From Flavisolibacter longurius (GTDB taxonomy: Bacteria; Bacteroidota; Bacteroidia; Chitinophagales; Chitinophagaceae), in contig JABUMY010000008.1 of assembly GCA_013327885.1 (NCBI GenBank), forward strand, positions 186,001-250,000: a stretch of DNA of 64,000 nt, written 5' to 3'. This document shows positions 35,958 to 49,846 of this stretch, one piece after another (within the stretch, counting starts at the first letter, position 1; each line of letters opens with the position of its first letter). Both the position numbers and the translations under genes were made by a program. The notes under the pieces are model-generated. The model was not told the DNA's origin and ran no database searches. It saw only the letters and a list, made by a program, of their open reading frames with translations.

Positions 35958-38111
35958 TTATCTAATAAAAACACTTAAGGATCTTGGGCTTTCGCCTTCT
36001 TTAATTTTCATTAAATGGAATTTAAGTCCAAATGATAAAGCTTTAGAGGCTATCAAATCAGCAACTTCATATTCATTTTGATTCTCGTATTTTATTGTAT
36101 TTCGCTTTATATTATAGTTTTTATACAACTTAGGATCTAGTGTTCTCATAATCGCTACTATGTTCTTTTCGTCTTTCAAAAGTTGAAGAAGAGAATCTGC
36201 AATTGGTCTTTTGTTTTTAATATCTTCCTCATTATAGAAAATAGTTACCCTATACAAATCCTTTCCATATTTACTCCTGACTGCAGCATTAAGTTTACGT
36301 TCTGTTGGAGAAAAGTTTTGGAAATTCGAAACTGAATTAACAACTTCATCTTTGGATAGAGCTTCATACTTATCTCTATATATATTTTTGGCAATCTCAA
36401 TGGCCTGAGGATCGTTTTCCGCATCTAGAGCCTGATCTACAGATTTATCAAAATAATTGCTAGCTGCAGTGGTGTCCTCTTCTTCAAGAGCCTGATAAGC
36501 AGAATCTTTATATAATACTGGATTAAGGGGAGCATCTGCTGGCTGACTATTATCTTCCTTGTTTAAGCTGCTCTTATTTTGAGTTATTATCCAGACTGAT
36601 ATGAGTACAACCAAAAACCCAGCTAGAAAAATGTAATTACGTCGCCAATAATTTGTGTTAGCAACAGACGAACCATGTTTAACGGCAAAGTTTTCGTTTG
36701 TTTGTGGCAAGTTATTTAGAATATCATTATTTCTATTCCGATCTTTTTCAATTTTATTGTGAATATGGTATATTAATTTATCACTCACTTTTTTAATTAA
36801 GCTTATTAGAATAGCTTCTTGACCTTTTATCGATTTTGCTGTAAAAAGGTTTGTAATTTGAACTGAAATGTCCTTGATTATACTTTCTTGTAACAATTGT
36901 AAACAATCGGTATCAACTTGTTTTATTTCGTTGAATATCCTGTCAGAAACATATGTTACATATTCATTAAGTGGTGTACTTTTGCTAATATTTTCAACTG
37001 AGTTCGGGCTTTTTAGTGTTTGCCTAAATTTTTCATCTTTGTAAATAACTAATTGTTCTTCATTAAGAACTTGTTTGATTTCTTCATATCTAAGTGACTC
37101 TGATATAATAGCTGAGATACTTTTGAAGAGTTCCTGTATATAAAAAGAGTCTGCAATCTTCAGTAGTTTATCCCTATTTTCAATTAATAAGTGCGGATAA
37201 TCCAAACGTGTTGCTATCAAAGCCGCTATAGATTGATATGCATACCCTATACCAGTTGTATCAACCGTACCACTTTTTTCTGTTACAGGAAGCTTTTCAC
37301 CATAGCTATAATATGTAATATATGGAACCTTTATTAAACGTAAAAAGTCTCCTCTATCCACAGAAGTTGGAAGCCAATGATTAAATATCTTTTCTAAACC
37401 TTGCTCAAATTTATCAAGCCATTCTTCAGTAAGTTTTTTTTCACTATTATCTAATCTAGTTGGTACAGGTAACGTTAGCAAATTCAGCCGTTGAAAACCA
37501 AGTTCTTTTCTTGAAGCATATGCCCTTTCTGCCACTGATTTAATTCCCAAGAACCCCTGTTCTGTTGCTGTAAATAGTATAACAAGTATATCAGGTAACT
37601 GAATAGTACAAATGCCTCCAATATCGGTAATACCAGTTCTACTATCTACTAGTATAAAGTCATAATGCTCTTTCCATTGTTGCCTTAAATCTTCAATTAT
37701 TTCTTCCCCATTTTTTTCTCTGTAGAAATTTTTGACATCAAAGGTTCTTACTTTTCTATAATACTTTTCATCCCGCTTGCCAGCAGTAAGCATATCAAGT
37801 TTGTGATGGTGTCCTTGGATCGGTATGTTCACTATACAAGTTTTCCAATCTTTCAAACTTGTGGTTTGTTCTTTTTCATTACTAACCTCTTGTATCTCAT
37901 CATGAATAATATCAATGATCCCATATTGATGCTCAACATCTTCGACTTTTATATAGTCTTTGAAAAAATTTTCCAAACCAGGTGCTTCAAGATCCCAATC
38001 AATTATAAGAACCCTATGACCCCATTTAGCAAGGAGCATAGCCACGTTGGCCAAACACATAGTTCTACCGACGCCACCTTTATACGAATAAAATGTTATG
38101 ATTCGGCTCAT
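35958..38111 (-). CDS. KGGVGR ParA/MinD-like ATPase with C-terminal membrane segment
   Basis: The protein has 717 residues. The ParA/MinD-type NTPase domain (about 1-310) begins with the deviant Walker A KGGVGRT at 11-17, has LIIDWDLEAPG near 35 and a Walker B-like LVDSRTG near 155. Residues about 320-480 are helical and unrecognised. One membrane helix spans about 488-508. The last 200 residues contain a helical part (TPR-like YQALEEEDTTAASNYFDKSV) and an alpha/beta module with YRVTIFYNEEDIKNKRP. The gene starts 3 bases after the stop of a TIR gene. Such NTPases are seen beside TIR genes in bacterial conflict loci. Here the membrane anchor is notable; the role is inferred. Confidence 0.8.
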   Translation of the reverse strand: MSRIITFYSYKGGVGRTMCLANVAMLLAKWGHRVLIIDWDLEAPGLENFFKDYIKVEDVEHQYGIIDIIHDEIQEVSNEKEQTTSLKDWKTCIVNIPIQGHHHKLDMLTAGKRDEKYYRKVRTFDVKNFYREKNGEEIIEDLRQQWKEHYDFILVDSRTGITDIGGICTIQLPDILVILFTATEQGFLGIKSVAERAYASRKELGFQRLNLLTLPVPTRLDNSEKKLTEEWLDKFEQGLEKIFNHWLPTSVDRGDFLRLIKVPYITYYSYGEKLPVTEKSGTVDTTGIGYAYQSIAALIATRLDYPHLLIENRDKLLKIADSFYIQELFKSISAIISESLRYEEIKQVLNEEQLVIYKDEKFRQTLKSPNSVENISKSTPLNEYVTYVSDRIFNEIKQVDTDCLQLLQESIIKDISVQITNLFTAKSIKGQEAILISLIKKVSDKLIYHIHNKIEKDRNRNNDILNNLPQTNENFAVKHGSSVANTNYWRRNYIFLAGFLVVLISVWIITQNKSSLNKEDNSQPADAPLNPVLYKDSAYQALEEEDTTAASNYFDKSVDQALDAENDPQAIEIAKNIYRDKYEALSKDEVVNSVSNFQNFSPTERKLNAAVRSKYGKDLYRVTIFYNEEDIKNKRPIADSLLQLLKDEKNIVAIMRTLDPKLYKNYNIKRNTIKYENQNEYEVADLIASKALSFGLKFHLMKIKEGESPRSLSVFIR

Positions 38112-38114
38112 AAT

Positions 38115-38783
38115 CTACATTTGTGGCTCTTTTTTCAATTGCCTGCAATCGATAGTTTGTAAAAACTGATTATACGGATCATCCCACCATGCAGGATTCC
38201 GCCATTCTGGTTGCCATTTAGGAGCTTCTTGAATTGACGGAATCACACTTTCTTCTAACCAACGACGAACCTTCATTCTTAATTGACCATATGCTTCGCT
38301 GTCGATGAAACTATTGTGAAGGTGAAAGTACTTATCCTCCTCTAAGCGCAAAGGTGTAAGATTTTCAACAAGTGCTGCCACTCTAGGACACTTATTAGTA
38401 AGGGAGCTAACATACTTGTTAGTCTTCTGGTCAAATATCGTAAATATAACAGGGAACAATAAACCTTTAAAACTATCACTTGGATTAAGAACCTGCTTTT
38501 GCCGGTGTAATATAGCTGAAAACTCTGTGGGGCACCAAATTGACTTGCAAAAGTATGGAGCACTCAAAACTGCAATCATGCATTTTGAAGATGTAACAGC
38601 ATCTTTAAGTACTTGATCTGCTGTTGCACCGTGCGGAATATCTATAATATCTTTAAATGTTGGGTTTTCATTGTATTCTGATATGAAGTATTTCAAAATA
38701 AGAGGGTAAAATACTTTATCTACCCATTCTTTATATTCCCCACTCCACTTATAGCTTATAAAAACATCGTATTTGTAACTCAT
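38115..38783 (-). CDS. TIR-domain protein, partner of KGGVGR ATPase
   Basis: The protein has 222 residues. The TIR domain covers about 4-150: YDVFISYKWSGEYKEW at the start, the conserved MIAVLSAPYFCKS strand, and WCPTEF with Glu87 in the place of the catalytic glutamate of NAD-cleaving TIR domains. The C-terminal third is a helical tail rich in tryptophan (PKWQPEWRNPAWWDDPYNQF). It is the first gene of a two-gene operon; the ATPase starts 3 bases after its stop. The likely role is NAD cleavage or signal production after a trigger, as in other TIR immune proteins; this is inference. Confidence 0.88.
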   Translation of the reverse strand: MSYKYDVFISYKWSGEYKEWVDKVFYPLILKYFISEYNENPTFKDIIDIPHGATADQVLKDAVTSSKCMIAVLSAPYFCKSIWCPTEFSAILHRQKQVLNPSDSFKGLLFPVIFTIFDQKTNKYVSSLTNKCPRVAALVENLTPLRLEEDKYFHLHNSFIDSEAYGQLRMKVRRWLEESVIPSIQEAPKWQPEWRNPAWWDDPYNQFLQTIDCRQLKKEPQM

Positions 38784-41368: not shown

Positions 41369-42376
41369 CTATGTTCTTTTTGCTGCTATTGATGCGGCAA
41401 TCTGATTGGCGATGTAGGGAGTAACACCCAGGCACAAAGCAATAATTACTGCAGTCATTGCACTGAAATTAGGAGGCCTGCTAGTTCTTATATAATGATA
41501 AATGAAAAAACAACTCATACAAGTGACGAAAACAATGATGGCAAGGATAGTAATTAGGGCTATAAACCTGCTAATACTCGGCTTTGGGCTAAAATCTGTT
41601 TGATAACTATTTTCCTTTCCTACTTCTAGCCATTTTATCTTTTGCTCAATAGCTTTCAAAGCATCTAACTCCTCTTTCTTCGCTGTTTCAAGACTCTCAG
41701 CCATTTCGCTTTTATGTGTTTTTGCTTTTATTAACCTTTTCTCAGCATCATCTAATGCTTTCTTGCTTTCATTTGTAGTTAGCCTATTGTTGTTCTCTCT
41801 TGCTTGTTTTTCAACTTCTTCTGCTTTCTTATATTCTTCATCAGCTGCTGTAAAAGCCCTGAATGCCTTACTTTTTTGATCTTCTTTTGACTTACTTGTA
41901 TAGATTAATTCATTCAAAGACGGCCAAGACGCTGAAACCTCTATTGTTGTTGGGAAAAGCATAGGTAGATTTTGAATACTACCTCCTATAGTACTTATCA
42001 TTGCTGCACTGTATTCGGGATTCTTGATAGTTTTTTTCGGGTGGCTGTTTTCCGATAACGCACCTTTAATATCTATTTTTCTCCCAACAGTTACTGAAAC
42101 AAATAGCAACACTAGTATCATTAGAATTATTGGCACACTTACTAAAATCCATTTTAGTGTATTATCATCTAATTCATGAAAGTTTTGTGAGCTAAACTCT
42201 GCATCTTTATCCTTAAGTTCCTGAACCGCGGCCTGAAGTTTATTTGTCTGCTCTTTTAGAGCGTTGATACTTTTTATAGAGTTCTGCAACCCAGTATCAG
42301 ATTTATCTATCGTAGTCTGGGCATTTCCCGAAAAGAAAAATGTGCAAAAAGTTATGAACAAAACCAATTTAGTCAT
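41369..42376 (-). CDS. Secreted coiled-coil membrane protein
   Basis: The protein has 335 residues. A signal peptide (to SGNAQ) is followed by a coiled coil (about 25-65), a membrane helix near 75-95, a long charged coiled coil (about 145-240) and two closely spaced membrane helices near 270-320. It is encoded 9 bases after the membrane protein at 42386. A structural envelope part is likely, but no family is recognised. Confidence 0.6.
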   Translation of the reverse strand: MTKLVLFITFCTFFFSGNAQTTIDKSDTGLQNSIKSINALKEQTNKLQAAVQELKDKDAEFSSQNFHELDDNTLKWILVSVPIILMILVLLFVSVTVGRKIDIKGALSENSHPKKTIKNPEYSAAMISTIGGSIQNLPMLFPTTIEVSASWPSLNELIYTSKSKEDQKSKAFRAFTAADEEYKKAEEVEKQARENNNRLTTNESKKALDDAEKRLIKAKTHKSEMAESLETAKKEELDALKAIEQKIKWLEVGKENSYQTDFSPKPSISRFIALITILAIIVFVTCMSCFFIYHYIRTSRPPNFSAMTAVIIALCLGVTPYIANQIAASIAAKRT

Positions 42377-42385
42377 ACCACGAAT

Positions 42386-43453
42386 TTATTTATCAAGTTT
42401 AGGGTTTCTCATCTGTAATGGAAGTGGAGAAGTGGTATTTACTGTTTGGGCTCTTCCTGAAGAGTCTTGTGATGGCTTTGGCCCAGTTGTTCTCAAATTG
42501 ACCAGTTTATTTAAAACATCAAACCAGAAAGGAGCACCTATGATAATTGCAAGAGTCGTTACTAACCATCCAAAAACGCGATTGGTTGAATTATGATCAT
42601 CTCCCCAGCCCCATGGCAATTCTGGATTCAAAACAATATTGGGCCTCCCGGTCAAATTAGCAACATTTATCCCTCTACTAGCCAATTCGGCAAATTCAGC
42701 TAATTCTTCCTTGTGATGATAGAAATACTTACCGATTGTTATACTATTTATATTTAGTCCAATAGTCAGAGCAATTGCTACTATAATCGTTGCAGGCAAA
42801 GCCTTTCTTTTTAGGGTTCCAGTTAAACGATCTTGATTCAAATTATACCAATTACCCAATTTATCTCGGAAATATTCAACTTCATTCCCTAGTTGTGTCT
42901 GTGCTGAGGTTCCAGACATCTGTTGAGCAATGGCGTTTGCAGTAGCAGAAGGGCTAGTAAAACTACCTTGGCTTACTTTCGTTGCTTCTGCTTCATATGC
43001 AAACATCAAAAACACTCTTTTCAATTCAGCAGAAATAACTTCTGTTTTCTTTATTTGTTCTATATAGCCTTTGATACCTAAAGGTGGCAATACAAAATTT
43101 AGATTTTCAGAACGTTCATTTGTAATGGAAATCTTATCTAATAATGCGGTCGTAAAGTTTACATCTGATAAGTAAGAATTAGATTTACCTCTTGGGGATA
43201 GTGCAGTAACCATGCAATGATCTATTATAGCCTTCCCTACACTTATAGGCTTACCCTTTTCATCTATCATAGGCAATCCATGCGCATCAAGTGCTTGTAA
43301 ATTAAAGATAGCTTTTAACCAATTTTCAAGAATTCTTGCTCTTGTTCTTCGTACAGTTAACCATAATTCAACTGCAGAGCTGCAAACTATACTCAACAAA
43401 AAATAAATAAAGATCATTCCTATTACCAAATCAAGAATCGGAAAGACACTCAT
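42386..43453 (-). CDS. Membrane protein of unknown function
   Basis: The protein has 355 residues. One N-terminal helix (LDLVIGMIFIYFLLSIVCSSA) is followed by a helical region and then two more membrane helices near 215-235 and 305-325. The N-terminal pattern D.x.IG.IFIYFLLS is common in a family of uncharacterised bacterial membrane proteins. A Gln/Ser/Thr-rich stretch near 175 (GTSAQTQLG) may be a linker. The gene is the second of the envelope cluster, 22 bases after the small gene at 43476. Confidence 0.6.
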   Translation of the reverse strand: MSVFPILDLVIGMIFIYFLLSIVCSSAVELWLTVRRTRARILENWLKAIFNLQALDAHGLPMIDEKGKPISVGKAIIDHCMVTALSPRGKSNSYLSDVNFTTALLDKISITNERSENLNFVLPPLGIKGYIEQIKKTEVISAELKRVFLMFAYEAEATKVSQGSFTSPSATANAIAQQMSGTSAQTQLGNEVEYFRDKLGNWYNLNQDRLTGTLKRKALPATIIVAIALTIGLNINSITIGKYFYHHKEELAEFAELASRGINVANLTGRPNIVLNPELPWGWGDDHNSTNRVFGWLVTTLAIIIGAPFWFDVLNKLVNLRTTGPKPSQDSSGRAQTVNTTSPLPLQMRNPKLDK

Positions 43454-43869: not shown

Positions 43870-44880
43870 TATAATGAGTATACTGTTTCTTTGACAGAGA
43901 AGGGAAAGGAATCGTTCAGCGATGCAAAACAAAAGCACAGGCGGTGAATATGCTTATATATTGATGGCAGTAGATTAACGCTCAGAAAACCTCCATGGCA
44001 GTGAAACTTCTCGGCACTTTAAGGTCATGGATCTCTTCATAGAAGGCATCAGGAAACGCGTTCTAGAATAGGGTCATGAGCGAGTGGTATATGGAAAGAA
44101 ACACACAGTGTTCAAAGAAAATAAAATTAACGGACGCGTGGGAGAGCACCTAATTGTCCTTGACTGCAGTAATTCGCCCGAAGAACACAGCACTCAAACG
44201 CTGCACCTGCCGGCTGATCACAAAATACAGCTTGGCTATGTAGAGCGTATTTCATATGACTTGTTTAGGCAGTTGCTAAAAAGCCTGGTGCTTCAGTTTA
44301 TTTTGTCTGCCCTCTGGAAGAAGTGTTGGACGTCTATGAACAGCTTTATGAGAAAAGTTGTCCGGTGTTGTTTCTGGATGGATCGCCCTATTAGATCATT
44401 AGTTAAAGCAAGCAAATCTTTACCGTTAGCAAAGGAGGGTGAAGTATGTAGATGTATGATTATTGAAGAGAGAGCATTGTGGATATTTACATAATTTGTA
44501 AGCCTAAAGCCAGCAAACGCTTCGTACAGGTAAATGACTTCGATAATTCGTAACAGTGTGTAAGGGTGATGGCTCACGTTGCCACAACCGTCTATCCACA
44601 CGCCGCTTGCATTAAGCTTATATAGTAAAACTTAACGGCCTACAGGAAAGTGGATCTCTATGAAGTCTCCGAAGCGGAGAGGGCACAGAATCATTCTTCG
44701 ACACTTTTAACTTGTTTATACACCGAACTACAGCTCGTGGCTAAATATGGCAAAAATTGAACTTAGTGTACTCAGCAGAGTGGCACTGGCACATAGAATA
44801 GGAAGTAAAACAAAAATCAAAAATCTAATAGATGTCTACTTAAAAGAAAAAACAATGCTGCCAAATCAACCAATTGTCAG
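43870..44880 (+). pseudogene. Decayed IS630-family transposase
   Basis: Fragments in several frames reproduce an IS630 transposase in order: VSLTEKGKESF near 43890, INGRVGEHLIVLDCSNSPEE and QLGYVERISYDLFRQLLKS (44115-44290), then LEEVLDVYEQLYEKSCPVL and FLDGSPY (44310-44395), and LNMAKIELSVLSRVALAHRI (44730-44805) with the last catalytic glutamate. In-frame stops and shifts mean it is not functional. It marks the left side of the TIR cassette at 44990. Confidence 0.75.
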
Positions 44881-44989: not shown

Positions 44990-45559
44990 ATGCCCGAGCG
45001 CATTTCACAACCCGCTCTTGATAAATTCCTTCGCACGGAATCGAGAAAGTTTGGGCGAGAAGAACTGGAAAGGAGAGTTGAAAACAAAAAACCATTTACA
45101 CAAGGCAGACGGCCTGATAAAAGTATTTTCCTTTGTCATAGCCACTTAGATAAAACGATTGTGTTGAAAGTGGGGTTACTGTTTGACAAAGTAGACCTTG
45201 AAATTTATGTCGATTGGATGGACTCCAGCCTTCCTCCTATTACTGATAAGCAGACAGCAGCCACTATCAAAAATAAGATTGAACGCTGTAAAAAGTTTCT
45301 ATTTGTCGCTACTGTCAACAGCCTCCAATCACGCTGGTGCAATTGGGAATTGGGCCTAGCTTATTCACTAAAAAAAGAATCAGAAATTGCGATTCTTCCA
45401 ATCGAATCAAAAACAAAACGATGGAGGGGCTATGAATACCTGCGGCTTTTTCCAGAAATGAAAATAGAAACAGAGGACCTCGAAAACATCCACCAAGATC
45501 AGATCAAAATAAAAGGTACGCAAAATAGCTGTCAATCATTTCAACAATGGATACAATAA
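44990..45559 (+). CDS. TIR-domain protein, first gene of TIR-membrane-TIR operon
   Basis: The protein has 189 residues. A charged helical leader (about 1-42) precedes a TIR domain: KSIFLCHSHLDKTIVLKVG (45 onward), then VDLEIYVDWMDSSLPPIT and KNKIERCKKFLFVATVNS, and WCNWELGLAYSL with Glu120 in the catalytic place. There is no signal peptide. It lies 11 bases before the membrane protein gene and about 110 after an IS630 remnant, so the operon may have arrived with mobile DNA. TIR domains of this type make NAD-derived signals or deplete NAD when triggered. The activity is inferred from the family. Confidence 0.9.
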   Translation: MPERISQPALDKFLRTESRKFGREELERRVENKKPFTQGRRPDKSIFLCHSHLDKTIVLKVGLLFDKVDLEIYVDWMDSSLPPITDKQTAATIKNKIERCKKFLFVATVNSLQSRWCNWELGLAYSLKKESEIAILPIESKTKRWRGYEYLRLFPEMKIETEDLENIHQDQIKIKGTQNSCQSFQQWIQ

Positions 45560-45570
45560 ATTAAAATAAA

Positions 45571-46086
45571 ATGGATACTTCCCACATCGATGACAAGAAA
45601 ATAAAATATTTCGAACTCCTGCAGAATATTATCACACGGATGAACAGCAATTCATTCATGATAAAAGGTTGGGCTATTACTATTGTTTCGGCCGTTCTAG
45701 CACTATTGGCATCAACGGATAATCAATCATTCATCGCTATTACCGCTGTGCCGATTTTGGTGTTCTGGATTTCGGACAGCTTTTACCTACAGACAGAGCG
45801 TAGATTTGTGACCCTGTATAAAAAGGCAATTGTAAAGAATTCCACATTGGAAGCGTTTAGTATGGATATCAAAGCAGATGCTATTAAAAATCAACAAGGC
45901 AATAGCTATTTTGAAAGTTTCTTTTCCCGAACCATTTTGTCCTTTTACTTATCATTGTTGATTGTCGCCGTAGCCTGCATTTTTTTTATTTCTAACAAAA
46001 AGGATGATGAAAAACCGATGAAAGTTGAAGTTTCTTCCACTGATACCATAAAACTGCAAACTATTCCAGACACCATTAAACAATAA
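45571..46086 (+). CDS. Membrane protein between two TIR genes
   Basis: The protein has 171 residues. A cytoplasmic N-terminus (KYFELLQNIITRMNSNSFM) leads to two close helices (about 30-70, IKGWAITIVSAVLALLAS and IAITAVPILVFWI) and then a loop region with a third helix near 120-140 (TILSFYLSLLIVAVACIFF). The tail is charged and Thr-rich. I recognise the N-terminal pattern from small membrane proteins found beside TIR genes, but cannot name a Pfam family with certainty. It lies 11 bases after the first TIR gene and 3 before the second. It may be the membrane effector or sensor of the cassette. Confidence 0.75.
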   Translation: MDTSHIDDKKIKYFELLQNIITRMNSNSFMIKGWAITIVSAVLALLASTDNQSFIAITAVPILVFWISDSFYLQTERRFVTLYKKAIVKNSTLEAFSMDIKADAIKNQQGNSYFESFFSRTILSFYLSLLIVAVACIFFISNKKDDEKPMKVEVSSTDTIKLQTIPDTIKQ

Positions 46087-46089
46087 GCT

Positions 46090-46905
46090 ATGCACTCGGA
46101 AAATTTTGACGGCGCAATATCCTTCGCTGGTGAGCATCGCAGCCTTGCAAGGTCCATTACACGGCAACTGGCGCCTCTTGGCTATAAAATATTCTACGAT
46201 AAATATTACAGCCTCTGGGGTGAATTACTGTCTGAAGCGTTTTTTGATATTTACCGGAACGTGAAAATAATTGTAATCATCGTTTCAACAGAATATAATG
46301 AAAAAATGTGGACTCGCCATGAGAGGAGGATAGCAGTCTCTAATTTTATCAACCAAGGCGGCAAACTGCTGCAAATTAAGGTGGATGGCTCCAGCCTTCC
46401 CGACATAGGAGACATGCTGGGTTATGAAACTTATACCGGTAATAACCTGCACCAACTCTGTAGTGGTATCATTTCCGCCATTGGCAAAAAGAAACAATTA
46501 GAACTCCCTGTTCAGGATGAACTGATCACAGAAATCATGCAGGCATGTTACCGGAGGGCCATTTATACAGCAATGAATAGTGAGGTAAGTACGGAGGCAA
46601 TGTTTGATTCAATTAGAGCCTGTATTGGTGAGCTTAACCGACTTATACCTAAAATTTACGACGGAGTACTATCGCAATATGTCAAAAGTATAGTAAAGGA
46701 TCTGGATAGTATCGACCGGTATTCAAAGGGAGCACCGCATTATTCCTGCCTGTTCACATTGACTGAAAAGGAACAGATAGACTCTATTAAGATAGAGATT
46801 CTTGACAAACTACATTTTCTTAATTATCAATATAATGCAAGGATGGATTTACCTGATGATATTGGTTTGGATTACGAATTAAGAGGGTATGCGTTTCCTG
46901 ATTGA
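46090..46905 (+). CDS. TIR-domain protein, third gene of TIR-membrane-TIR operon
   Basis: The protein has 271 residues. The TIR domain (about 5-130) has ENFDGAISFAGEHRSLARSI, IFYDKYYSLWGELLSEAFF, IVIIVSTEYNEKMW and HERR with Glu78. The C-terminal half is helical (about 145-265) and unrecognised. The stop is a tandem TGATAA. An IS5-type element begins 6 bases past it, so the end appears natural. It starts 3 bases after the membrane protein gene; the two TIR domains of this operon are not close copies, so they may do different jobs. Confidence 0.9.
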   Translation: MHSENFDGAISFAGEHRSLARSITRQLAPLGYKIFYDKYYSLWGELLSEAFFDIYRNVKIIVIIVSTEYNEKMWTRHERRIAVSNFINQGGKLLQIKVDGSSLPDIGDMLGYETYTGNNLHQLCSGIISAIGKKKQLELPVQDELITEIMQACYRRAIYTAMNSEVSTEAMFDSIRACIGELNRLIPKIYDGVLSQYVKSIVKDLDSIDRYSKGAPHYSCLFTLTEKEQIDSIKIEILDKLHFLNYQYNARMDLPDDIGLDYELRGYAFPD

Positions 46906-46910
46906 TAATC

Positions 46911-47766
46911 AGAACTTATTTAAAAATAGGTTCAAATAGGTAAGGTGTTTGGTGTTGCTGTGGAAAATGTGTTGAGATGAAGCAGAAGCAGTTGGTTGAT
47001 TTGTGGAGTTTGTTTGCACCAATGGTAGTGAAAAAGTATGGAAGAAAGCTGGGAACGGGACCTCCACCAGTAGATCTGAGGTGGACTTTTAAGGCAATCA
47101 TCTTGATTGTAAAGACTGGTGCCCCATGGCGCTCTATTCGCGAAGATTTTATCCGTCGTATCAGAGTTGTCACCGCTACTTTCAACTTTGGATTCAGGAA
47201 GGGTTGTTTAAGAAGTTGATGCGCAAAATAAGGCGGCACCCTTTGTACTGAAAGGACATCCGGGTCAAAGAGATGTTCTATCTGCACGGCAGCTTTGCTC
47301 CGTCTAAAAAGGGGTGCCTACCAAGGTGCTACAGAGAAGGTAAAAGGAACCAACTTCATGGTACTCGCAGATGAAAAAAGCCGTCCTATATCCCTGATCA
47401 TCGCCTCTGCCTCTGCTCACGAGGTTTGGCTTCTGGAAGAAGTGATCTGACAAAGGGCCAGTAAAGCAAGGCCAAGGCGCGTCACCGCTGACAGGGTATA
47501 CGACTCAGATCCGTTGGACAAAAAGTTGAAGCGAAAAGGCATTGAACTGAATGCTCCGCATCGAAAGAACCGGCGCAAACCACCAACACAGTATGGGCGA
47601 AAGCTCAGAGCCTACAAAAGGCGCTGGAAAGTAGAGCGGCTCTTTGCCTAGCTTTTCAACTTCAGACGGTGTGCAATCAGATACGAGTACAATACACAAA
47701 ACTATAAAGCATTCCTGCTACTCGCTTCCGACATCATCCTAATCCGATAATTTTAAGACATGTTCT
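46911..47766 (+). mobile_element. IS5-family (IS427-like) insertion sequence, decayed
   Basis: The ends are imperfect inverted repeats: AGAACTTATTTAAAA at 46911-46925 and the reverse complement of 47751-47766, matching at 13 of 16 positions with one gap. The element is about 856 bases, the usual size for this group. No clear target duplication is visible. The internal transposase is broken. Confidence 0.7.
46977..47750 (+). pseudogene. IS5-family transposase, frameshifted
   Basis: Frame one gives MKQKQLVDLWSLFAPMVVKK and VDLRWTFKAIILIVKTGAPW, the usual IS5/IS427 N-terminus. A shift leads into YQSCHRYFQLWIQEGLFKK. A second shift leads into GATEKVKGTNFMVLADEKS and SASAHEVWLLEEV, then [20 protein letters not shown] and [12 protein letters not shown], with in-frame stops. 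At least two shifts and two stops make it a pseudogene. Confidence 0.8.
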
Positions 47767-47849: not shown

Positions 47850-48602
47850 TTAGTACAGGTTATCTTCGCCAAGAATGCTTGCCACAATGCGGTATGCTAG
47901 AAAATTAGAGGGATAAAGCAGATGCATTAATTTCTCTTGTTTGCCTAGGTTCAACACTTCGGCCGGTGGGGGATCTTCCCTCATAATTTCAATGCCTTGT
48001 GTATTGGAATGACGTTCGGCGAGCAAAGCTGTTGCACCACCGGTATCCGGGAGTAAAAAAATCTTTTTTTCATTTGTTTTTCGCTCTAAAAAAAGCGCGA
48101 ATTCCTCCTCTACCCCCTCCATGCCACCCATGCAGACCAGCGCCGCTGGACTTTCTGCAAACATCTTTTCACGAAGCAGTCGCAAACTTTGGACGCACTG
48201 GGGCTGATTGTCTAGCGTCGGGTCATACCGCTCGCCTTCCACTGCCGGCGTCCAGATGATTTCAGCAAGGCCGGAGGTGTACAGGCCAATGGTTTCTTGG
48301 GGTAGCACGTCTTCATAAGCTCTTGATTGGAAAACACGCACACGCGCTGGCTGAGGGAGGGTCGTGGAGCTTTCGGCCTTTTGCTCTTCGGCAAACTCGG
48401 AAGCCACTATCGCAATCAAAGGGGAAATTGAAGGATGACCACCAAAGATAAGTTGTCCGCCTTGGTAAAACACCACGCGGGCAAGGCTAATGAGAGCCTC
48501 TTCGATGAACAGCTGTGCATCAGGAACACGGTTGTATTTGTCGGCCCGACTTGTGGACGGGACACTGGCTGAAAGAAGAAGAGAAAACCTATTGGGTGAC
48601 AT
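47850..48602 (-). CDS. SLOG-fold protein paired with TIR gene
   Basis: The protein has 250 residues from the ATG at 48602 (MSPNRFSLLLSASVPS); a longer frame to 48689 would overlap the TIR gene by 85 bases. The first half has FSLLLSASVPSTSRADK, the acidic VPDAQLFIEEALISLAR and GGQLIFGGHPSISPLIAIVA, the glycine-rich loop of the SLOG (Rossmann-like) superfamily. In the second half PAALVCMGGMEGVEEEFALF and IFLLPDTGGATALLAE support the same fold. SLOG domains can bind NAD-derived signals, as in Thoeris ThsA. It starts 2 bases after the TIR stop. No separate effector domain is visible. Confidence 0.78.
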   Translation of the reverse strand: MSPNRFSLLLSASVPSTSRADKYNRVPDAQLFIEEALISLARVVFYQGGQLIFGGHPSISPLIAIVASEFAEEQKAESSTTLPQPARVRVFQSRAYEDVLPQETIGLYTSGLAEIIWTPAVEGERYDPTLDNQPQCVQSLRLLREKMFAESPAALVCMGGMEGVEEEFALFLERKTNEKKIFLLPDTGGATALLAERHSNTQGIEIMREDPPPAEVLNLGKQEKLMHLLYPSNFLAYRIVASILGEDNLY

Positions 48603-48604
48603 AA

Positions 48605-49846
48605 TTAATATCCATTTTGAATGTGTCGAGCAAGAGGCAGAAGGGCACCTTCTTGAAAAAATGGAATGCCTACTTTGTGCGCCAGCCATTCGTTGCGTGT
48701 AGCACGGTTGGCTTCCATAAACCGAGGCCCTACGACCAACTTTTTCTCCACGGCTAAGGTACTCATATCGGTGAAATGGTAATCTTCCAGTTCCGCAGGA
48801 CGTGGTGTCGCCCAGATTTTATAAGTAGATTGTCCCCTCGCATCCGCCGTTTCAATGAGTCCGTCCACTCCCAGGTGATAAGGCAGCCCGCGTCGCTGCA
48901 AAAAGTAGTACAGGTTGGATTGTAAGTAAAGCCGTTTGCGAAACAGCGCCTTTGAATGTTGGGTTTTGATTTCTGCGATCACATGATTGAGTGTCTGATC
49001 GTTTAACTCCGCGCCACCCGCGGTAAAATGATGCCCGTGCAAAAAATAACGATAACTATCATCGATGGAAGGAATGCGTGGGTCCCCCCAGCGGTTCAGT
49101 GCATAAAAACCAAGCCGATTTTTTTTGGCAAAGGCGATTTCCAACTTGACCCAGTCTGATTGCTGGAAGTTCGGTGACTCCAAAAACAGCACCATTGCCT
49201 TGTCTGCTAGCTCCTGATAGAGGCGGCGCTGAAAATGAATGCCTACCCCAATGGAAAAGCGGTCTAGAAAGACTTCAAATCCCTTTTTGCTGAGCCCTTC
49301 GTACAATTGTTCCGCAAGGGGTGAGGTGTCGGTTTTTTTATAGGAAATAAAAATCCTACTATCGCGATGATCCATTCCCATAAGTCGCCAAAGTTCGGGA
49401 AGCACATCACCAACGTCGTTGGTCCAGAAAGCAGCCTGTGGAGAATTTAGCGGCGCGGGCAGTTGAATAAATTGGCCCTGTGGCTGTACTACAATCGTAT
49501 GGCCTGTCCATCCCAGAATGGCAGGATTGGCAAGGTTACTTACAGCTCCATCCGTCACAACAAACAAAACAGAAGTCACTCCCGATTTCCTCAATGCCTG
49601 ACAGCTGCCAAAGGCTACTGCGCTCCCTCCGCATAGTGGTGGGGATGGTTGAATGGCTGTGCCAAACTGGCCCAAACCGGTTACAAGTGCGTTTTTGAGA
49701 TCCATTGCCTGCCGTTCGGAAGCGGGGCTATCAGTGAAACTAATGGCAATGTAAACTGGCTGCGGGCAAGGAAGTCCTGTGAACGCTTCACACGTGAAGC
49801 TATTGGTACCGGGGTCTTGTACCTGTAAAATCATCTCTGAAGTCAT
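48605..49846 (-). CDS. TIR-domain protein with novel N-terminal domain
   Basis: The protein has 413 residues. Residues 1-150 form an alpha/beta domain I do not recognise, with PVYIAISFTDSPASERQAM and GVTSVLFVVTDGAV. The TIR domain covers about 163-290: SRIFISYKKTDTSPLAEQL, FEVFLDRFSIGVGIHFQRR, VLFLESPNFQQSDWVKLE with Glu236 in the catalytic place, and the LGFYALNRWGDPR strand. The C-terminal 110 residues are unrecognised. It is the first gene of the TIR-SLOG pair; the SLOG gene starts 2 bases after its stop. The N-terminal domain may sense a trigger. Confidence 0.85.
   Translation of the reverse strand: MTSEMILQVQDPGTNSFTCEAFTGLPCPQPVYIAISFTDSPASERQAMDLKNALVTGLGQFGTAIQPSPPLCGGSAVAFGSCQALRKSGVTSVLFVVTDGAVSNLANPAILGWTGHTIVVQPQGQFIQLPAPLNSPQAAFWTNDVGDVLPELWRLMGMDHRDSRIFISYKKTDTSPLAEQLYEGLSKKGFEVFLDRFSIGVGIHFQRRLYQELADKAMVLFLESPNFQQSDWVKLEIAFAKKNRLGFYALNRWGDPRIPSIDDSYRYFLHGHHFTAGGAELNDQTLNHVIAEIKTQHSKALFRKRLYLQSNLYYFLQRRGLPYHLGVDGLIETADARGQSTYKIWATPRPAELEDYHFTDMSTLAVEKKLVVGPRFMEANRATRNEWLAHKVGIPFFQEGALLPLARHIQNGY

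Follow-up and report, generated by a model that had tools for sequence, protein, structure and literature searches.

The stretch of DNA analyzed here, 64,000 nucleotides in length and hereafter called the window, carries three intact plus-strand open reading frames that run in one direction and are separated by gaps of only 11 and 3 bases. The first gene encodes TIR-A (positions 44990–45559), a ThsB-class protein of 189 amino acids with a putative catalytic glutamate at Glu120 (codon 45347–45349). It is followed by the gene for a small membrane protein of 171 amino acids with three predicted transmembrane helices (45571–46086), which is the putative effector. The third gene codes for TIR-B (46090–46905), a TIR protein of 271 amino acids that belongs to the SFAGE/LWG type, a motif read from our own alignment, and whose putative catalytic residue is Glu78 (codon 46321–46323). 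This order of TIR, membrane protein, and TIR had been proposed in an initial annotation of the DNA, and it is borne out by the intact reading frames and by matches of both outer proteins to the Pfam TIR_2 model (42.5 bits for TIR-A and 41.2 bits for TIR-B; cut-off 28).

The flanks, which lie outside the system, hold remnants of mobile elements. On the left is a degraded IS630-like transposase piece (44084–44494, plus strand), recognized by weak tblastn matches of which one is to an annotated IS630 family transposase (8e-6). On the right is a fragment of an IS5-type DUF4096 transposase (46977–47219, plus strand; Pfam PF13340, 36.5 bits, cut-off 34.3). Placement between IS630 and IS5 remnants, as first noted, therefore holds. 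Because the G+C content of the operon is 39% compared to 46% for the window, and because insertion sequence pieces are present on both sides, the operon looks horizontally acquired. A promoter and terminator scan was of no help, as it returned 10 promoter-like sites, where 7.3 are expected, and no terminator.

All four TIR_2 matches of this 5.7-Mb genome fall in the window, within about 11 kb. About 0.9 kb from the operon, and absent from the initial annotation, is a minus-strand pair resembling Thoeris type III that comprises ThcA (SLOG; 47850–48689) and a ThcB4-like TIR (48605–49846). The ThcA protein scores 133 bits, over the NCBIfam cut-off of 110, and the ThcB4-like TIR scores 148 bits, under its cut-off of 220. 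Also on the minus strand, a fourth TIR gene (222 amino acids) and then a gene for a 717-amino-acid ParA/MinD-like ATPase occupy 35958–38783. To the left of the operon, at 41369–43453 on the same strand, two neighboring genes encode larger proteins that are membrane proteins as judged by eye and are without clear family.

Given this setting, one might suppose that the operon has no role in defense and is a housekeeping or envelope-stress signaling unit, or else a decaying passenger of an island. The insertion sequence fragments on both sides are in keeping with a passenger, as is the loss from the membrane protein of some residues that are near-invariant in its family (described below). However, all three reading frames are intact, and the four TIR_2 matches of the genome are gathered beside a Thoeris type III-like pair. 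We return to this explanation with the distribution of the family.

The top PADLOC score of TIR-A is to the ThsB model PDLC00436 (1.3e-43), and its score against Pfam ThsB_TIR is 14.6 bits, below the cut-off of 21.2. Its closest solved relative is 8btn_B (5.3e-17), which we take to be a structure of Thoeris ThsB. TIR-A and TIR-B share about 20% identity in an alignment of seven TIR proteins, consistent with the earlier description of the two as not close copies. Glu120 is invariant in that alignment and likewise in the TIR-A cluster (18 of 18 TIRs aligned), and the Glu78 column is glutamate in 9 of 9 aligned TIR-B-class TIRs, which are TIR-B itself and 8 of the 20 other places where this class was found. 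For the three clusters of TIRs encoded near membrane genes, the catalytic column holds glutamate in every member aligned (49 of 49, 21 of 21, and 18 of 18); all of these counts cover TIRs of up to 320 amino acids. Both proteins carry the catalytic glutamate of TIR NADases, a putative activity, in the places first assigned to it.

Relatives of TIR-B align mostly over its TIR half, with one whole-protein match extending to residue 220. Used as a lone query, the C-terminal half matched itself alone and gave no convincing relatives, and a scan of viral contigs with TIR-B found none there. The fold predicted for TIR-B by itself has a mean pLDDT of 32.7 and is unusable.

For the membrane protein, hydropathy places helices near residues 30–46, 52–73, and 122–138, and AlphaFold2 predicts long helices at 8–48, 54–88, and 120–146 (mean pLDDT 84.4, pTM 0.71). 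The two methods agree on the two close helices and later third helix described at the outset. Across the family, the mean number of lysine and arginine residues is 3.4 in the N-terminus, 7.3 in the long second loop, and 0.6 in the first loop; from these positive charges, both the N-terminus and the second loop are predicted to be cytosolic. The invariant residues Q18, R23, N27, S28, F29, D69, E76, and S119, the polar ones included, are located where the helices are predicted to end on the cytosolic side, and they might suit a gate or a binding site there. The window copy deviates from the family at three near-invariant positions (Leu14 to Phe, Leu68 to Ser, and Arg80 to Val). It also has a charged tail of about 30 residues past the last helix, which is absent in most aligned relatives. 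The family alignment has 77 members, drawn from 71 of 80 loci plus the window protein and 5 others, and the alignment used for fold prediction has 56 of 81 sequences, the other 25, among them overlong, near-duplicate, and orphan sequences, having been removed manually.

The sole match of this protein in the PADLOC library is PDC-M50A (1e-39, residues 7–139). Scans of the window protein and 76 relatives assigned it to no Pfam or NCBIfam family. The Pfam models DUF3278 (21 of 77 members, best 4e-4) and 8xMP (5 of 77, best 0.0066) and the NCBIfam models KwaB (18 of 77, best 1.6e-4) and TIGR01218 (3 of 77, best 1.5e-4) were too weak and were set aside. A SLATT identity found no support: no member of the 77 matches SLATT models at E values up to 0.05, and an hhalign comparison of the membrane family with a SLATT set of 4 sequences gave a probability of 12.9% over 32 columns. 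Of 310 matches from a Foldseek search of the PDB (E values up to 10), none was as good as 0.001, and we therefore claim no fold relative; among PDB sequences, a profile search had a single match (E = 0.62). Neither the family scans nor Foldseek revealed a recognizable ligand-binding domain.

Relatives of the membrane protein were sought in one-per-species genomes. A profile built from six membrane proteins gave 358 confirmed relatives, and the loci considered here are the best 80 of these rather than a random sample. Neighbors were counted with our own simple ORF caller and with TIR profiles iterated from seven seeds. In 64 of the best 80 relatives, a co-directional TIR gene directly adjoins the membrane gene at a distance of no more than 150 bases, and in 22 this is so on both sides. 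A co-directional TIR gene is no more than two genes away in 66. At these loci, TIRs account for 88 of 154 immediate neighbors compared to 2 of 317 genes at least five positions away (Fisher p of about 5e-50, with genes taken as independent). There are 122 adjacent co-directional genes, of which 115 were scanned with Pfam and PADLOC (7 longer than 600 amino acids were left out). The results agree with the neighbor counts: 59 of the 115 match ThsB_TIR, 45 match TIR_2, and 37 match PDC-M50B, a ThsB-like TIR. Divergence of the membrane protein also tracks that of the adjacent TIR, with Mantel r values, uncorrected for host relatedness, of 0.27 (n = 41), 0.52 (n = 18), and 0.42 (n = 18).

Some relatives depart from this pattern. 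No co-directional TIR was found within two genes at 14 of the best 80 loci, and at 13 of these our profiles found no TIR anywhere in the fetched stretch. Several of the 13 are near contig ends, and L064 among them has a neighbor with a sub-threshold TIR_2 match. The scanned ORFs include no fusion of two transmembrane helices to a TIR.

The family is patchy and mobile. It is present in 20 of 395 genomes of the sampled phylum, a count that includes the present genome and two weak or partial matches, and for comparison ThsA markers exceed their cut-offs in 2 of 247 genomes (type I) and 3 of 247 (type II), although the sample sizes differ. Of 132 plasmids with matches to the membrane family, 83 are typed as conjugative. 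Among 11 plasmid and phage records examined (10 of the 132 matching plasmids and 1 of 3 phage records, chosen for variety and not at random), a TIR ORF is present in the stretch in 10 and is adjacent and co-directional in 9. The corresponding counts for 12 viral contigs are 12 and 10. The linkage of this membrane family to TIRs also extends to a haloarchaeal plasmid, and a close copy of one plasmid-borne TIR pair is found in 23 of 5426 Escherichia coli genomes. One 14.4-kb virus record assigned to the Vinavirales, with a Vibrio host, has a ThsB gene noted by its depositor and a membrane gene beside a putative integrase (L134, 1347–2635).

This distribution bears on the possibility that the operon does not serve defense. 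The 13 relatives lacking a TIR by our profiles would fit a housekeeping or stress-related function, but patchy occurrence, carriage on largely conjugative plasmids, and presence in viral contigs do not. Taken with the intact frames and the clustered TIR genes noted above, we regard a non-defense role as highly improbable.

The TIR genes no more than three genes away from a membrane gene form three main clusters, namely ThsB_TIR-like (49 members), the TIR-A class (21, including TIR-A), and a class of about 265 amino acids (21), and these occur in varied orders around the membrane protein. The commonest layout is a membrane gene followed by a single ThsB_TIR-like TIR (19 of 80 loci). In 8 loci, a 265-amino-acid TIR precedes the membrane gene, and in 7 the order is TIR-A class, membrane gene, ThsB_TIR-like TIR. 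None of the best 80 loci has a cluster-mate of TIR-B near its membrane gene, and the exact trio in the window (TIR-A class, membrane protein, TIR-B class) was not seen elsewhere. From these layouts and clusters, the gene order in the window is typical and the class of its second TIR is atypical. The expectation that the three genes would be found together in other genomes is thus satisfied in part: a TIR–membrane protein–TIR order is common, but its second TIR is usually of the ThsB_TIR class.

The unusual second TIR raises the possibility that the operon is in fact two units: a system made up of TIR-A with the membrane protein, and TIR-B as a single-gene TIR defense of its own that follows by chance. 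In addition to the lack of TIR-B cluster-mates in the 80 loci, 18 of the 20 other places with a TIR-B-class TIR have no member of the membrane family in the 3 to 6 kb that were fetched. Against this, only 3 bases separate the membrane gene from that of TIR-B, and a second TIR is no more than two genes away in 15 of the 19 membrane-family loci with a TIR of the TIR-A class. Moreover, TIR-B-class domains adjoin membrane-protein operons in the remaining 2 of the 20 places (L142, and L143 as an AAA-TIR fusion). With these observations and the loci described next, a division into two units seems rather doubtful to us. In L143 (3137–4633), the fusion gene, whose AAA part was recognized by eye, is immediately upstream of a TIR–membrane protein pair, which suggests that AAA-TIR fusions are a further class of sensor.

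The 395-genome sample contains 11 other loci with a TIR of the TIR-A class. A ThsB_TIR-like TIR is encoded in the same short stretch in 10 of these 11, a pairing that also argues against two units. Beside the TIR-A-class TIR is a member of the membrane family in 2 loci, a SLATT protein in 2, and a caspase-domain protein in 1. The remaining 6 have no recognized effector alongside and show instead a restriction subunit, further TIRs, a hydrolase, or unscanned neighbors; 10 proteins near these TIRs were scanned against Pfam, with the neighbors in L160 and L162 left out. Since a second TIR is nearly always present and the partners differ, the TIR pair is the constant part and the third gene the one that varies. 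It is chiefly this exchange of partners around the TIR pair, seen at 5 loci, that leads us to regard the membrane protein as the effector.

Three of these loci are of interest individually. In L163 (1411–3351), a TIR-A-class gene, a caspase-domain gene, and a ThsB_TIR-like gene stand in a row, with the caspase in the middle slot. In L154 (1–1385) and L156 (2–1989), SLATT membrane proteins directly adjoin TIR-A-class TIRs, with a ThsB_TIR-like ORF upstream. The TIR-A-class match in L154 has a stop codon inside it.

Partner exchange also speaks to an explanation that reverses the roles: the TIRs would kill by depleting NAD+, with the membrane protein serving as anchor, sensor, or restraint, recruiting them to the membrane or inhibiting them until infection. 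Bacterial TIRs can deplete NAD+ themselves, as one article states (PMC12847820), no ligand domain is detectable in the membrane protein, and TIR-B-class TIRs mostly occur away from the membrane family. However, the TIR-A class is also found beside SLATT and caspase-domain proteins, which are putative effectors in their own right, and a synthase fits these associations better than a killer does. The commonest layout, with its single ThsB_TIR-like TIR after the membrane gene, likewise argues against killing by the TIRs, and we judge this reversal of roles to be clearly unlikely.

A TIR-based defense role for the operon is probable, in line with the initial annotation of a candidate defense system with a putative membrane effector. 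Specifically, we propose that this is an acquired, Thoeris-like anti-phage operon in which nucleotides made by the TIRs trigger a minimal membrane effector and thereby stop the infected cell, an explanation to which we assign a probability of roughly 65%. One or both TIR proteins would sense infection and turn NAD+ into a signal derived from ADP-ribose. This signal would activate the 171-amino-acid membrane protein, with its N-terminus inside and its three helices, which might then oligomerize or open in the inner membrane so that the infected cell is stopped. The membrane protein would be the effector, and the TIRs would be exchangeable sensors and synthases. Phage sensing, NAD+ cleavage, the identity of the signal, and membrane permeabilization are steps that we infer. 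Support comes from the TIR linkage, the exchange of both partners and TIRs, the conserved glutamates, the covariation, the polar residues at cytosolic helix ends, and published analogues. On the other side are the lack of a recognizable ligand domain in the membrane protein and of a PDB match at an E value of 0.001 or better, the 14 of 80 loci without a near TIR, the 6 of 11 TIR-A-class loci without a recognized effector, the lack of a 2TM-TIR fusion, and the changes in the window copy at near-invariant positions 14, 68, and 80.

Several of these features could be brought together in a more specific and more tentative reading, to which we give somewhat less than even odds. The core of the membrane protein, about 135 residues forming three helices with no separate ligand domain, would be a nucleotide-gated death channel opened directly by a TIR-made derivative of ADP-ribose that binds among the invariant polar residues of the cytosolic face. 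Within a cassette of two TIRs it would be the part that is swapped, with caspase, SLATT, and membrane-family proteins standing in for one another. In the window copy, a TIR of another class would occupy the second sensor slot, and the effector may have drifted alongside (Arg80 to Val, Leu68 to Ser).

If the preferred reading of an acquired Thoeris-like operon with a minimal membrane effector is true, then this membrane family is a common and mobile class of TIR effector, and a very small membrane effector at that. One could then test whether a TIR-made nucleotide gates a membrane protein that has neither a macro domain nor a SLOG or STING domain. With its exchangeable partner, the TIR pair would also offer a natural experiment on the matching of TIR signals to effectors.

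Comparison with known systems begins with PDC-M50, a PADLOC candidate consisting of the membrane protein PDC-M50A and the TIR PDC-M50B. The two-gene core of the operon is already known as this computational candidate, and TIR-A scores as ThsB in the library; on this point the initial annotation needs correcting, since the arrangement is not an unlisted one. The window operon shares the PDC-M50A protein but has two TIRs, neither of which matches PDC-M50B at E values up to 1. In the open-licence literature, outside of which most subscription journals lie, we found no functional study or validation of PDC-M50. An article on archaeal immunity describes validation as pending for most such candidates of its core set, and PDC-M50 is unnamed in its text (PMC12988326). 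The present analysis adds to this how broadly the family is linked to TIRs, the finding that the TIR pair stays constant while its partner varies, and the combination of TIRs in the window.

Thoeris type I pairs a ThsB TIR with a SIR2-SLOG ThsA. TIR-A qualifies as ThsB by its PADLOC score, with its Pfam ThsB_TIR score under the cut-off, but the putative effector of the window operon is a membrane protein and not a ThsA with a STALD domain. Type II Thoeris is closer, in that it has ThsB-class TIRs and a membrane effector with two close helices. In its published model, a TIR-made nucleotide activates a two-helix TM-macro ThsA (PMC11204291), whereas the window protein has no macro domain. The genome has no match to STALD, the SLOG domain of ThsA, in a search that matched 3 of 247 genomes (2 over the cut-off), none to ThsA_Macro in a search that matched 3 of 247 (all over the cut-off), and none to the SMODS cyclase of CBASS in a search that was positive in 3 of 14 control genomes. 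This agrees with the original contention that the operon is neither a ThsA-containing Thoeris system nor CBASS. Models of the Thc proteins of Thoeris type III match none of the three operon proteins at E values up to 1 and do match the neighboring ORFs at 47850–49846. Thoeris type IV, which combines a TIR with a caspase-like effector and is described in PMC12847820, resembles L163 with its central caspase gene, and the middle gene in the window codes for a membrane protein instead.

The Rst 2TM-1TM-TIR system of the P2-like phage AC1 likewise joins a TIR with small transmembrane proteins, a likeness of layout alone, and differs in that its three genes encode one TIR protein and transmembrane proteins rather than two TIRs. 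It is active against phage and protects E. coli, and its authors propose a TIR messenger that acts on the transmembrane proteins (PMC9122126). SLATT proteins (SMODS and SLOG-associating 2TM effectors) are also small putative membrane effectors, some of them beside TIR-A-class TIRs as in L154 and L156, but none of the 77 aligned members of the present membrane family matches a SLATT profile at E values up to 0.05. A TIR–membrane protein–TIR layout may already be among the E. coli TIR systems that Wang et al. studied in 2024. Because the proposed working of the operon is Thoeris-like and the operon belongs to none of the types compared here, we consider it a variant of these systems.
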